In this document: piece by piece, positions 7,264 through 12,324 of the stretch | Layout: each line of letters starts with the position of its first letter | How positions within the stretch are numbered: the first letter of the stretch is position 1 | Assembly: GCF_016801985.1 (NCBI RefSeq) | Contig: NZ_JAEVLS010000001.1 | Coordinates: 248,001 to 312,000 of the forward strand | Direction of reading: 5' to 3' | DNA: 64,000 bases | Source: Steroidobacter gossypii | GTDB lineage: Bacteria; Pseudomonadota; Gammaproteobacteria; Steroidobacterales; Steroidobacteraceae | Position numbers and translations under genes: made by a program | The notes under the pieces: model-generated | The model's input: the letters and a program-made list of their open reading frames with translations, nothing else | What the model was told of the DNA's origin: nothing | Database searches by the model: none

Positions 7264-10200
7264 TTAGAACGAGTAGCGGATAGCCAGGCCCGTCTGACGC
7301 GCATCCTTGTCGTAGTACTCGTGCTCGAGTTGCAACTCCAAACGTTGCCACAAGCGAGCGCGAACACCGGCACCGAGCGCGAACTGGTCGCTGTGCTGCT
7401 GGTCCTCGACGATGTAGCTGGCCGCATCGACGCGCAACATGGCGTAGCCCAGCTTGGCGTGAACGTTGAACGGCCGCGCCTCGTCGAACAACAAGTAGCC
7501 GGCGAACACACTCGGGAAGGTGTAATCGAGCGGCTCGCGTCCTTCGATCGAGGGATTGCGGTGTTGGACCTGCGCGCTGCCCATGTCCGCATAGCCAAGC
7601 TCGAAGAACCAATGCTGGCGGAAACGATATTCCACGCTGAGCTTGTAGCCGATGTCGCTGTCATCGACCAGCTTCCACGCCGACTGCGAATCGTCCGGCC
7701 GCAGCGTGGTTACAAACGCTCCCACACCCACCGACCAGCAGCCTTCGCTGAAGCTGCCGCCGGTGGTGCAAGTCGCGGCCGTGTCGGCCGCGCGTGCGGT
7801 GGGCATGTGCATCGCCGACGCACCGATGGCGACGACGACCACAGCCGCCCGGGCAGCACGCCCGGGCTTGCGAATGAACATCAGCACCAGCAGTGCGAGT
7901 AGCGCGAGCAACCCGAAGCTGCCGCCACCGCCGCCTTTGACGCCGGTCTTCAGACCCGGGTCTTTCTGCAAGGCGTCGTTGATGCCGTCGCGGTTGAAGT
8001 CACCCCATTCCTTGCCGTCCGGCATGCCGTCGTTGTCGGCGTCCGTATCGAGATGGTCGGGGATGCCATCGCCATCGGTATCCACGACTCGCACTTTGCG
8101 ATCGTCGATACCGTCGCCGTTCGCATCGATGCCACCCGTCGCGTCAACGTCGAGCGCATCGTCGATGCCGTCGCCGTCCGAATCCGCGCCGCTCAACGCC
8201 ACCAGCAGGATCTCCTGTGCATCCGGGATGCCGTCGTTGTCACTATCGGTATCCAGGTAGTCCGGAATGCCGTCGCGATCCGTGTCTCGCCGCATCGCGC
8301 CCTCATAAGCGTCGTCCACGCCGTTGTTGTTCGCGTCGATGCCCGACGGACGCGGCAGACCCATCTCGATGCGATCCGGAATGCCGTCATTGTCGGCATC
8401 GCGATCCAGTCGATCGGGCACGCCGTCGCCATCCGAGTCGCCGTCGCCCTCGACGGAATCGAGAATGCCGTCGCCGTCGTCGTCCTGATCGCGATGAGAC
8501 GGCACGCCGTCGTCATCGCCGTCGGCGCGCGAGCCACGCTGCATCGGCTCGGCATCCGCCACATCCGGAATGCCGTCTTCATCGGTATCGGTGCTGTCAT
8601 CGATACGTCCGTCGCCATCGGCGTCGAGGTTCCGATAGATCGTACCCGCGATATCCGTGACGCCGTCGTTGTCGCTGTCGGTATCGCGATGATCCGGAAT
8701 GCCGTCGCCGTCCGTGTCGCGCGGCGTCGAGGTGATCGTGCCGCCGACATCGAGCAGGCCATCGCCGTCCTCGTCGACGCCACCGGATTCGACGACATCG
8801 GGGATCGAGTCGTTGTCGCTGTCCAGATCGCGGAAGTCGGGCACGCCGTCGCTATCCGAGTCGCGCGCTGCGGCCGAGTCGGCCACGCCATCGCCATTCG
8901 AATCGGCGCCGCCGACGTAGTCCACGTCGAACGCATCGTCGATGCCATCGCCGTCCGTATCGGAGCCGCTCGCGCCGCCTTCGGCACGATCGCTCACGCC
9001 GTCGTTGTCGCTGTCGGAGTCCGCCACGTCGGGGATGCCATCCATATCGCTGTCGAGCGGACGCGCATCGTCGGCAATGCCGTCGCCATTGGCGTCGGTG
9101 TTGCCCGGCGTGTCGGCGTCCCAGCGATCGTCGATGCCGTCATTGTCCGAATCGAAGCCATAAGCGCCGGATTCGAGAATGTCGGGAATGCCGTCGTTGT
9201 CCTGATCGGTATCGACCAGGTCCGACCGACCGTCGCCATCCGTATCGGGCAGCGCTGCATCGTCGATGCCGTCGCCATTGGCGTCGGTGCCGCCGGTCTG
9301 ATCGACATCGAAGCGATCGGCAATGCCGTCACCATCGGTGTCCTGGTGCAAGCCGGGCAACTCGAGTGCATCGGGCACGCCGTCGTTGTCGCTATCCAGG
9401 TCGCGATAGTCCGGTGTGCCGTCGCCATCGGAATCGCCCGCGCCTTCGAGCACGTCGGGAATGCCGTCGCCGTCGGTATCGTGGTCGCGATTGTCCGGAA
9501 TGCCGTCGCCGTCCAGGTCGCCGCTGCCCTCGGACACGTTTTCGATGCCGTCGCCGTCGATGTCCATGTCGTAGTTGTCGATCACGCCATCGCGGTCCGT
9601 ATCGGTCAGACCCGGATTCGAGTCGGCATCGGCACGGTCATTGACGCCATCGCCATCGCTGTCGGTGCCATTGTCGGGAATGCCATCGCCGTTCACGTCC
9701 ACGTCCGCGCCATCGGGGATGCCGTCGCCGTCCGTATCGCTGTTCGCGTCATTCGGATCAACGGCGTCCGGCAAACCGTCGCCATCGGCATCGGCACGGT
9801 TGTCGATCGTATCGGCCGAATCCGCGATGCCGTCGCCATCGGCGTCACCGCCGCCAACCTGATCGACGTCGCTGGCGTTGTTGATGCCGTCGCCATCGCT
9901 GTCGGTGCCATTGTCGGGGATGCCGTCGCCGTTCACGTCCACGTCGGCGCCGTCCGGGATGCCGTCGCCGTCGGTATCGGGATTGGCGTCGTTCGCATCG
10001 TCGGCGTCCGGCAGGCCGTCGCCGTCGGCGTCGGGCAGCGCAGTCACCTGGATGCTGAAAGCGGGCAGGCTGTCGGTCGAGCCGTCGTCGTCGCTCACGC
10101 TGATGACGATGCCTGCGTAGGTGCCAGCGCTGCCGCGCGGCGGCGTGCCGCTGAGCCGGCCGGTCGCCGTATTGAAGGTCGCCCAGATCGGCATGTTGAC

Positions 10201-12324
10201 GATGCTGAAAGTCAGGTTCCCGCCGATCCCGACGTCTGCGTCGCTGGCGCTCGGGATGAAGCTGTAGGCGTTGCGCTCCATGACGCTGGTTGCAGGAGTG
10301 CCGGAAATGACCGGGGCGTTGTCATCGACACCGAAGTACGTGACTTCACCCGCGTGCGGCCCCGCCGAATTGCCAGTGCCGTCGTCGGCCGTGAGCGAGT
10401 AAGTGGGCGCGTTCTCGGTGCCACCGTGAGCGAACGCAATCCTGCCGAGCGTCACGTCCTGCTGAGTGAACGAGCTGATCGGCGTGCCTGGGTTGCTGAC
10501 GAACTCGAAGTGGCCGTGCGTCACGCTCGTCACGGTGAACGTAATCGGGTCGCCATCCGGATCGGCGTAGCTGATATTGGAATCGCTCAACGCCACCGTC
10601 GTGCCTTCGGTCACGGAGATTCGATTGGCCGCTTGCAATGGTCCGGTGTTCGCCGGCGGCGGAGAGGCATGCGGCTGCACGTTCACGAAGAAGTCATAGG
10701 CATTGCTGTGCCCTTCCCCGTCCTGAATGAACAGCGACAGCGAGCGATCGCCCGCCGGGCGCAGCGTGAACGTGTCCTGATAGGTCAGGCTGCGCACCAA
10801 CGCCTGTGCGGCCGCCAGCGTGGCATCGTTGCTCGTGAAGTTGACGCGCAGAGCGCGGCCGACGCCATCCTGGGCCGGATCGATCTCGCCGATGACCTGG
10901 CCTGCGTAATACACCTGGTCGCCATCGACGCGAATCTGTCCCGGGCCGTCGCCGACGGACTCGATGCCGAGGCGTTCATAGGCGCCGTCGGTGAACGTGA
11001 CGTTGAACAGCACGAAGCCGCCGTTGAGGTGTGGACTGTCCACATCCTCCACGAGTGCGTTGTTGCCTTGATCGACCAACTGTTGCGCGGCGTCGCCCGG
11101 CGCGGTCGAGTTATTGTTGTAGACGGTCCGGTCGCCCTCGATGTTCGAGATCTTGGGGGCCAGCGGATCGGGCACGATGAAATTGATGACCAGATAGGAA
11201 TCGCTGCGGACGTTGTTCGCATCGGAGATCTGGAACGTGATGGGATAAGAGCCCGGCTCCAGCCCCGTGCCGGGGGCGCCTGGAGTGAAGGTGAAGGTAT
11301 TCGCGGTGCTTTCGACCAGAGTGCCTTGCAGGCTGCCAAGGCTGGTCGTATCGACGTTGCTTGCGGTCACCGTGAACGTATAGGAGCTGCCCTTCTCGAC
11401 GCGCACGTTGCGCGTCTCGGGAAACGTTCCGCCGTCCCCGGGCTCGATGTCGTTCACCGGATCGAAATTGACCGCGGCCTTGTTTTCCAGCCGGAGAATG
11501 AAATCCACATGGGTCTTGGACTTGGCCGCGCCGTACGCATCGACGTCCTCGGCGACGATGCCGCCGCTGTACATGTGTCCAGCGGTCAGGCTACCCGAGC
11601 CGGTCCAGGTCAACAGACCCGTGTTGGGATTGATGGAAAGTCCCGCTGGATTGGTATAGCCGCAGCTGCCGGCGGTGCAACCGAGCTCGCTTTGATTCGC
11701 CAGCCGGTAACGCAGCTTGTCGGCGTTCGGATCGCTGGAGCTGATATCGAACGTCCAGTCGGGCAACGCCACCGTGCCGCCCACGCCATCGTCTTGCAAC
11801 ATCGGCACTTCGAGGATGATCGGCAGGTCGACCTTGGGGGCCAGGTTGCCGTCCTTCAGATAGATGGTCGTCTGGATGTTCCAGCCGCCGTCCGCGTTGT
11901 TTTGCAGGTCGGAAATGCGATCGCCACTGGCGAACGCGACTGTGTAGCGCGTGTTGGGATCGAGGTTCCTCTTCTCGAACAAGGTTGTCGTCAGCGCGTA
12001 GTCGGTGGTGGGGTGCGCCGAGCAAGTCGATGACGCGCTCACTGTCACGCCCGGGCCGACGCAGAGGCGCTCTTCGCTGATCAGCGTGAACGTGCCCAAG
12101 GATGGCGAGGACGAAAGCGAGGGAGTGTTGATCGAATCCGGTCGCCACGCGGTTTTGACCGTGACGCGTACGTCGTTCTTGACGCCATCGCCGTCGAGGG
12201 CCAACGCCTGCCACGTGATGGAGCCGCCGCGGAAATGTGTTGCCTGCGCCAGGTGCGGAGCCGCTAGCGCGGACAGCGCCAGCAGCAGCGGCGCCGCGAG
12301 GCGGCGTAACTTGAGAGCAAACAT
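7264..12324 (-). CDS. Giant secreted protein: Ig/CSPG-like domains, thrombospondin type 3 repeats, internal sorting-tail-like segment, C-terminal outer-membrane barrel
   Basis: A 1686-residue envelope protein. Order: Sec signal peptide (1-28, ends AHLAQA-like); an [19 protein letters not shown] N-terminal domain to about 290; Ig/cadherin-like region to about 560; a CSPG/cadherin-like domain (about 561-672); a putative-Ig (He_PIG) domain (about 673-760); about 44 calcium-binding thrombospondin type 3 repeats of the DTDGDGIPD type (about 763-1455). Residues 1464-1489 read [20 protein letters not shown] then basic residues, resembling a GlyGly-CTERM-type sorting tail. Residues 1490-1512 resemble a second signal peptide ending PTARA-A. 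Residues 1513-1686 form an OmpA-like eight-strand barrel ending RYSF, with the C-terminal aromatic used for outer-membrane assembly. The frame is intact throughout. It probably shares a transcript with the small exported protein upstream. Role in adhesion or matrix binding is inferred from the repeats. Confidence 0.85.
7847..7867. repeat. GC hairpin at the sorting-tail/barrel junction of the TSP3 gene
   Basis: Two copies of the self-complementary octamer GCCCGGGC (7847-7854 and 7860-7867) are separated by AGCAC, giving a very stable 8-bp stem with a 5-base loop on either strand. It falls exactly between the codons for the sorting-tail-like segment and the second signal-peptide-like segment. 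No T-run follows on the minus strand. It could be a codon-use coincidence, a pause site, or the relic of an intergenic element. Confidence 0.4.
7968..10038 (-). repeat. Coding tandem repeats for thrombospondin type 3 motifs
   Basis: About 2 kb of imperfect repeats encoding the calcium-binding consensus DxDxDGxxD, roughly 44 by my count. Unit length varies (often 13-17 codons per pair of motifs). One long block, from [19 protein letters not shown] back through [12 protein letters not shown], occurs twice nearly identically near the 5' end (about 9640-9760 and 9880-10000), consistent with a recent internal duplication. The strong codon periodicity keeps the opposite strand open for about 4 kb. 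Confidence 0.85.

Follow-up and report, generated by a model that had tools for sequence, protein, structure and literature searches.

In a 64,000-nt stretch of Steroidobacter gossypii DNA (contig NZ_JAEVLS010000001.1, positions 248,001–312,000; hereafter the window), a single gene encodes a secreted repeat shaft followed by an outer-membrane β-barrel, with two complete processing signals in tandem between them: a GlyGly-CTERM sorting tail and a second, signal-peptide-like segment. The order of these parts is conserved, together with the matching protease, rhombosortase. From the sequence, we consider it likely that the product is a precursor, a polyprotein of the bacterial envelope, from which rhombosortase and signal peptidase I release a lipid-anchored shaft and a barrel partner. 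The sorting tail stands mid-chain, conserved with its enzyme, between proteins that are elsewhere made from adjacent genes. The pattern is widespread, occurs also with JDVT-type tails and has one printed MYXO-CTERM precedent; none of this had been foreseen in the initial annotation, a note made on the sequence before the comparisons described here.

Conservation of the fused layout and its junction

First, the layout recurs in many genomes. We searched a sample of relatives (148 genomes) with the C-terminal 247 residues of the window protein, and a class sample (369 genomes of Gammaproteobacteria) with an eight-row profile, A1. Matches were found in 20 of the 148 relatives, the window's own genome included, with long frames of the same layout in seven others; A1 matched in 148 of the 369 class genomes. 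Among the A1 matches listed with open frames of at least 600 residues (48), 44 are fused and carry both signals. In the remaining four the barrel has its own N-terminal signal peptide: one is a two-gene pair (G309:C16:3927), two have an apparently spurious upstream frame (G302:C36 and G498:C217) and one extends downstream of the barrel (G335:C79). A barrel-family profile, A2, listed nine frames of at least 600 residues: two that had been found before (G000, G218), six fused ones, and one that was dropped because of a masked stretch (G604). The 44, together with L137 (which ends at a contig end, as L121 is also cut by one), the seven relatives and the six found by A2 in the phylum sample, bring the order glycine-rich motif, helix, basic residues, helix, AxA site and barrel to at least 58 proteins in at least 45 genomes, with differing passengers. 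The initial annotation had allowed that a sequencing error might have joined two genes; the window genome is a draft in 32 contigs (7.1 Mb), but the same join in at least 58 proteins makes the likelihood of an assembly or sequencing error negligible.

Second, the junction keeps its anatomy. Features were measured in 47 fused proteins, taken from 48 translated loci and nine later ones with L091, L111, L112, L122 and L124–L129 left out; L112, L122, L166/L276, L137 and G418:C5:22595 are also fused and enter the total of 58, though they are not among the 47 measured. All 47, the window protein included, have two hydrophobic segments separated by a loop with at least two K or R (median 4, minimum 2), and D and E are absent from this loop in 45. 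Where the first helix begins, an 18-residue stretch holds a median of five Gly (minimum 2). These charges are consistent with a membrane hairpin whose loop lies in the cytoplasm. In the window protein, GGGGG starts at residue 1464, a basic pair follows at 1485–1486 and the predicted cleavage site in PTARA|AD falls after residue 1512. The signals are intact even in fused proteins only 19–34% identical to the window's segment. Beyond the junction, OMP_b-brl matches all 46 aligned fused proteins and an OmpA-type NRRV motif follows the barrel in 28 of the 47; ahead of it, many passengers are shafts of thrombospondin type 3 (TSP3) repeats, and seven of the 47 have no TSP3-type motif. Four loci (L112 in G301, L122 in G457, L276 in G156 and L104, G418:C5:22595) carry additional sequence after the second signal peptide and ahead of the barrel; by eye it is FecR-like in L112, and in the others it consists of acidic or charged linkers.

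Third, the second helix resembles genuine signal peptides. Two home-made signal-peptide rules were applied, a strict version first and a relaxed one afterwards. Under the relaxed rule the second helix passes in 47 of 47 proteins, compared with 34/41 of the proteins' own N-termini and 39/45 stand-alone barrels, and with control rates of 121/9400 passenger windows and 2/43 barrel windows; under the strict rule the figures are 26/47 for the second helix, 22/41 for own N-termini, 27/45 for stand-alone barrels and 26/9400 for passenger windows. The resemblance to real N-termini thus holds under both rules. The segment takes the position that the N-terminal signal peptide has in stand-alone and split barrel genes. 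The window's copy, which the initial annotation had recognized as signal-like at residues 1490–1512, has a basic n-region, a hydrophobic core and an AxA site and passes both versions.

A GlyGly-type tail and its candidate enzymes

The GlyGly-hydrophobic-basic segment noted earlier at residues 1464–1489 scores 22.9 bits against TIGR03501 in a search of the whole genome (cut-off 15.5), the best score there, and 18.7 bits when excised. That search returned no match at E 0.001 and seven at E 10, four of them above the cut-off. Besides the window tail, these include classical C-terminal GlyGly-CTERM proteins, L037–L039 above the cut-off and L040 just below it at 15.1 bits, whose chains end shortly past the basic cluster; the motif of L038 is nearly the same as that of the window protein. 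The ten-residue window motif has no Cys, in keeping with the GlyGly-CTERM rule (PMC3237569), and thus lacks the invariant Cys of MYXO-CTERM and JDVT-CTERM tails. Its position is internal, with 197 residues beyond residue 1489 that include the second helix. The window protein is therefore a variant rather than a classical member of the family.

The window genome encodes one rhombosortase above the cut-off (130 bits against 84), so that the enzyme and further GlyGly-CTERM proteins, both of which the initial annotation had proposed to seek, are present. It carries GLSG and a downstream His, which we take to be catalytic. In the class sample, rhombosortase occurs above the cut-off in 126 of 369 genomes: in 32 of 32 with a fused protein and in 94 of 337 without one among the matches listed (p 6e-17). 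When the comparison is confined to genomes bearing the barrel family, with the others again defined by having no fused protein among the matches listed, the counts are 32/32 and 48/116 (p 8e-11). The enzyme is also present in seven of seven fused relatives and in all six phylum-sample genomes, which makes 45 of 45 fused genomes; the genome of the dropped frame, G604, has a match of 67.6 bits, under the cut-off. In one genome (G453) the fused gene and the rhombosortase gene share a strand, the second starting right past the stop of the first, and in the other six same-contig cases the two lie 14 kb to 2.3 Mb apart. A plain linker, the reading under which the initial annotation would have abandoned its proposal had the genome lacked rhombosortase, is ruled out by the conserved signals and by the presence of the enzyme. 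In the window genome (L120, G000:C22:1218000–1232000), the rhombosortase gene lies divergent from gspI, J, K, L, M and N, linking sorting and type II secretion in one locus.

These counts also bear on the idea that only the internal signal peptide is used, with signal peptidase I freeing the barrel while its helix keeps the shaft in the inner membrane, or a different rhomboid, GlpG for instance, sheds it. All 47 measured proteins have a second segment that resembles a signal peptide, three further rhomboid-like matches (25.5–40.2 bits, under the cut-off) exist in the window genome, and cleavage of VesB by GlpG in the absence of RssP is described (PMC13393428). Rhombosortase nevertheless accompanies the fused protein in all 45 genomes and its gene adjoins a fused gene in one, and we regard this alternative as unlikely.

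A second sorting enzyme accompanies part of the family. JDVT-CTERM-like tails with Cys, called by eye, are clear in four fused proteins (G221, G291, G324 and G357), and MrtJ, found in 52 of 369 class genomes, occurs in all four of these genomes compared with 48 of the 365 others. In nine genomes MrtJ lies 0.6–1.4 kb downstream of a barrel of the fused-protein family on the same strand (G357:C79, G457:C54, G451:C34, G189:C8, G329:C37, G223:C115, G210:C44, G326:C76 and G462:C149); in two other same-contig cases it is 39 and 55 kb away. Tail protein, barrel and MrtJ stand in a row in G357, G457 and G451, and the upstream sequence read in G189 holds no tailed gene before the barrel. Rhombosortase is likewise present in all four JDVT-type fused genomes, and MrtJ occurs in another four fused genomes whose fused protein has no JDVT-type tail, so either enzyme may act in the JDVT-type genomes. 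No match to MrtJ was found in the window genome at E 1e-20.

Two-gene forms and the history of the window locus

The initial annotation had suggested looking for homologues in a two-gene arrangement, and these exist. Of 45 barrel loci whose upstream DNA was read, two proved fused (L137, L166); among the 43 non-fused loci, one of which is a partial barrel frame (L133), nine directly follow a gene ending in a sorting-type tail (G389, G484, G309, G457, G303, G357, G510, G451 and G403). Tail matches at L152, L158 and L162 were dropped because they are not Gly-type tails beside a barrel. The order is tailed gene, stop codon, signal peptide and barrel, and some split tails are JDVT-type. In five of six junctions inspected the tailed gene is in the same frame as the barrel gene, so little beyond a stop codon separates the split from the fused form. 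The existence of both shows that fusion, fission or both took place.

A barrel tree of 88 rows, made with a quick method and with 38 of 85 inner branches weak, interleaves split and fused proteins, with 16 changes of state of which at least five are forced by strong branches; L121 and L160 were left out, and the fused L166, a poorly filled row, is labelled stand-alone. The window protein groups with 15 other rows in a clade that has support 97, spans nine families and is fused in all but one row. Much of this bears on a recent or neutral fusion, in which the leftover signals would be dead and the uncut chain made or degraded. The gene is absent from the site in three of the four named relatives compared and is thus lineage-specific within the group, but the breadth of the fused clade and the intact signals in proteins of 19–34% identity make such a fusion highly improbable. 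Even very divergent relatives retain the signals, and rhombosortase is present in 45 of 45 fused genomes; the processing signals of the fused proteins therefore probably still work. The initial annotation had offered gene fusion and a cut precursor as alternatives: each now has support, from the nine two-gene loci and from the retention of the signals with rhombosortase, respectively, and what falls away is the need to choose.

Locally, the block 7082–13109 is lacking in Steroidobacter agaridevorans, Peristeroidobacter agariperforans and a Steroidobacter metagenome-assembled genome. These loci (L170, L171 and L173) have the same flanking genes with neither the fused gene nor the open reading frame at 12377–12820, and 1.3–2.8 kb of other sequence instead; in the fourth relative (L172) the left flank alone matched. 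Absence between the same flanks means that the fused gene at this site is a lineage-specific gain or has been lost repeatedly. By its neighbouring cfa gene, which has 93% identity to the S. agaridevorans and P. agariperforans copies, the organism belongs to the group of these two species. Another genome of the genus (G012) has a fused protein with a different passenger, and a single-sequence search for named relatives of the fused cassette found none.

The gene itself (Table 1) is the one intact 1686-residue frame at 7264–12324 on the minus strand that the initial annotation had reported. Its Sec signal peptide was read again, and the expected Ig/CSPG/He_PIG domains appeared in Pfam searches of the whole protein as two He_PIG stretches and Cadherin_3 at residues 567–651. 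A weaker match at residues 34–155 (11860–12225), to SIBA-E_N, the N-terminal domain of integrin-beta-like proteins, scores 24.7 bits, below its cut-off of 28.1. The TSP3 repeats stood, at a lower count than the earlier figure of about 44: 42 calcium motifs with D or N allowed and 32 under the strict pattern, spanning residues 765–1442 with 32% D+E. The chain does end in Phe (RYSF), after a barrel that matches OMP_b-brl at residues 1528–1674 (4e-13 on the whole protein). Alone, the barrel segment scores 46.6 bits against PF13505 and 25.7 bits against PF01389 (cut-off 21), and A2 matches OmpA structures, such as 3nb3 at 2e-17; the fold assignment consists of these profile matches, as the AlphaFold2 model from the single window sequence (predicted local distance difference test score, pLDDT, 31.6) was not used. 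No OmpA wall-binding domain was found in the window barrel. A type V autotransporter was considered and rejected: PF03797 has no match in the window protein at E 0.1 and matches three of 46 relatives at E≤0.01, and two helices lie between passenger and barrel.

Table 1. Parts of the fused gene, in window coordinates
Feature	Position	Strand	Basis or remark
Whole fused gene	7264..12324	-	1686 residues plus stop; single open frame; layout shared with at least 57 other proteins
N-terminal Sec signal peptide, residues 1–28 (AQA|TH)	12241..12324	-	Predicted site, from the AxA motif
Secreted passenger, residues 29–762: weak SIBA-E_N-like, He_PIG, Cadherin_3, He_PIG	10039..12240	-	Pfam
TSP3-type calcium-binding repeat shaft, residues 763–1455	7960..10038	-	Motif count
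Internal GlyGly-CTERM segment, residues 1464–1489: GGGGGS motif, hydrophobic helix, basic residues	7858..7935	-	TIGR03501
Second, internal signal-peptide-like segment, residues 1490–1512, predicted signal peptidase I site ARA|AD	7789..7857	-	Home-made signal-peptide rules
OmpA-type outer-membrane β-barrel, residues 1513–1686, C-terminal Phe	7267..7788	-	PF13505, profile A2

Two further frames lie at or over this locus. Upstream on the same strand, the 147-residue open reading frame at 12377–12820 has a signal-anchor-like start by eye and no Pfam match at E 0.01; it is a candidate partner for the fused gene. On the plus strand, a 1326-residue open frame opposite the repeat region (8053–12033) mirrors the TSP3 codons and is probably not a gene.

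A proposed cut precursor and its counterparts

In the mechanism that we propose, Sec would export the shaft, the GlyGly helix would stop in the inner membrane, leaving the basic loop on the cytoplasmic side, and export would resume at the second helix, acting as a signal peptide for the barrel. Rhombosortase would cut at the glycines and leave the shaft on a glycerophosphoethanolamine-type anchor, to be carried to the cell surface by type II secretion as VesB is; signal peptidase I would cut after ARA, the barrel would pass through the β-barrel assembly machinery (BAM) to the outer membrane, and the short helical hairpin would be discarded. The products would be a surface shaft or adhesin and an outer-membrane partner in equal amounts, as for TraA and TraB. 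An outer-membrane barrel can hardly stay tied by a short linker to an inner-membrane helix, and the difficulty of reaching the outer membrane while joined to such a hairpin supports cutting. For VesB of Vibrio cholerae, it is reported that cleavage by rhombosortase uncovers the second glycine, that the protein receives a moiety containing glycerophosphoethanolamine, with mass increments of +43 or +197 Da, and that it reaches the surface through type II secretion (PMC6219818).

Several points weigh against this proposal. Cutting is deduced from the sequence, and the partnership of shaft and barrel is drawn by analogy. GlyGly-CTERM is by its published definition a C-terminal signal with no further helix, and no member was predicted to have one between its signal peptide and its tail (PMC3237569). 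On the whole window protein TIGR03501 scores 12.3 bits, under its cut-off of 15.5, and across the family the tails are recognized by profile at E≤1 in a minority (TIGR03501 12 of 46, SVAGG 7, JDVT-CTERM 5, MYXO-CTERM 3), the rest being assigned by anatomy. A1 contained the tail region and so favours tailed proteins. The 32 fused class genomes belong to 21 families and are not independent, and rhombosortase is present in 103 of the 148 relatives, so its occurrence in all seven fused relatives proves little. Finally, a start codon with a Shine–Dalgarno sequence in the stretch between the helices is mildly commoner in the fused proteins than in control stretches (7/47 compared with 274/4600, p 0.02). 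This last point would suit an internal translation start, by which the barrel would also be made alone, as the second of two overlapping genes, and an in-frame ATG does occur in the stretch in 27 of 47 proteins (residue 1482 in the window protein). However, 40 of the 47 have no start with a Shine–Dalgarno sequence there, ATG is so accompanied in only three and the window protein has neither combination; overlapping genes, moreover, would need no conserved stop-free frame. We therefore give an internal start very little chance and hold the cut precursor to be the likely course.

The closest known system is GlyGly-CTERM with rhombosortase (TIGR03501 and TIGR03902; VesB and RssP), which shares with the window protein the glycine-rich motif, helix and basic cluster, an N-terminal signal peptide, and the presence of rhombosortase and type II secretion genes. 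The published set carries the signal at the C-terminus, whereas here it lies inside the chain, ahead of a second, signal-peptide-like helix and the barrel. JDVT-CTERM and MrtJ (NF033191 and NF033192) are comparable in that such tails occur on some fused and split relatives and MrtJ lies beside family barrels in nine genomes; unlike these, the window motif has no Cys, and its genome gave no MrtJ match at E 1e-20. Another natural precursor, FbcH of Bradyrhizobium, is a cytochrome b/c1 chain that yields two envelope proteins by cleavage at an internal signal peptide, but it has no sorting tail and its products belong to the inner membrane.

Mid-chain sorting tails have one named precedent. A paper on MYXO-CTERM describes rare internal motifs and names MXAN_5598 of Myxococcus xanthus, with adhesin, tail, barrel and OmpA domain, which is likened there to TraA plus TraB with processing of the adhesin proposed (PMC11980579), and MXAN_5598 is listed in an outer-membrane-vesicle proteome (PMC4158809). 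Like the proteins described here, MXAN_5598 joins an adhesin region, a sorting tail and an outer-membrane barrel in one chain. It differs in being a single named example of the Cys-type MYXO-CTERM/myxosortase system, whereas at least 58 proteins here are Gly-type with rhombosortase or JDVT-like with MrtJ, and in its OmpA domain, which the window protein lacks although the NRRV motif is present in 28 of 47 fused proteins. The listings and passages searched in the literature turned up no internal GlyGly-CTERM or JDVT tail.

TraA and TraB of M. xanthus resemble the split forms in layout: a tailed adhesin beside a partner with signal peptide, barrel, TSP3 repeats and OmpA domain, from overlapping genes (PMC3325183, PMC12045341). 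The latter paper predicts a 1:1 complex with TraA on the TraB barrel and places the OmpA domain of TraB after the TSP3 repeats. There the two are separate proteins, and the likeness drawn is one of layout; a membrane-exchange function is not implied. More tentatively, and with rather less confidence than in the cutting itself, we suggest that these proteins may form a widespread class of gammaproteobacterial envelope polyproteins, each a contact adhesin and its barrel anchor in one chain, which two membrane proteases, signal peptidase I and either rhombosortase or MrtJ, would separate to give a TraA/TraB-like 1:1 surface complex with exchangeable passengers.

Both the definition of sorting tails and the searches for them assume a C-terminal position, and mid-chain kinds may have been overlooked or named by their barrel alone. 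If they are cut as proposed, the fused proteins would be natural polyproteins of the bacterial envelope and would offer a sensitive test of an intramembrane protease reading its signal away from the chain end, and rhombosortase and MrtJ, two little-understood sorting enzymes, would be tied to a specific outer-membrane partner. The pairing of shaft and barrel makes a TraAB-like arrangement testable outside the myxobacteria.

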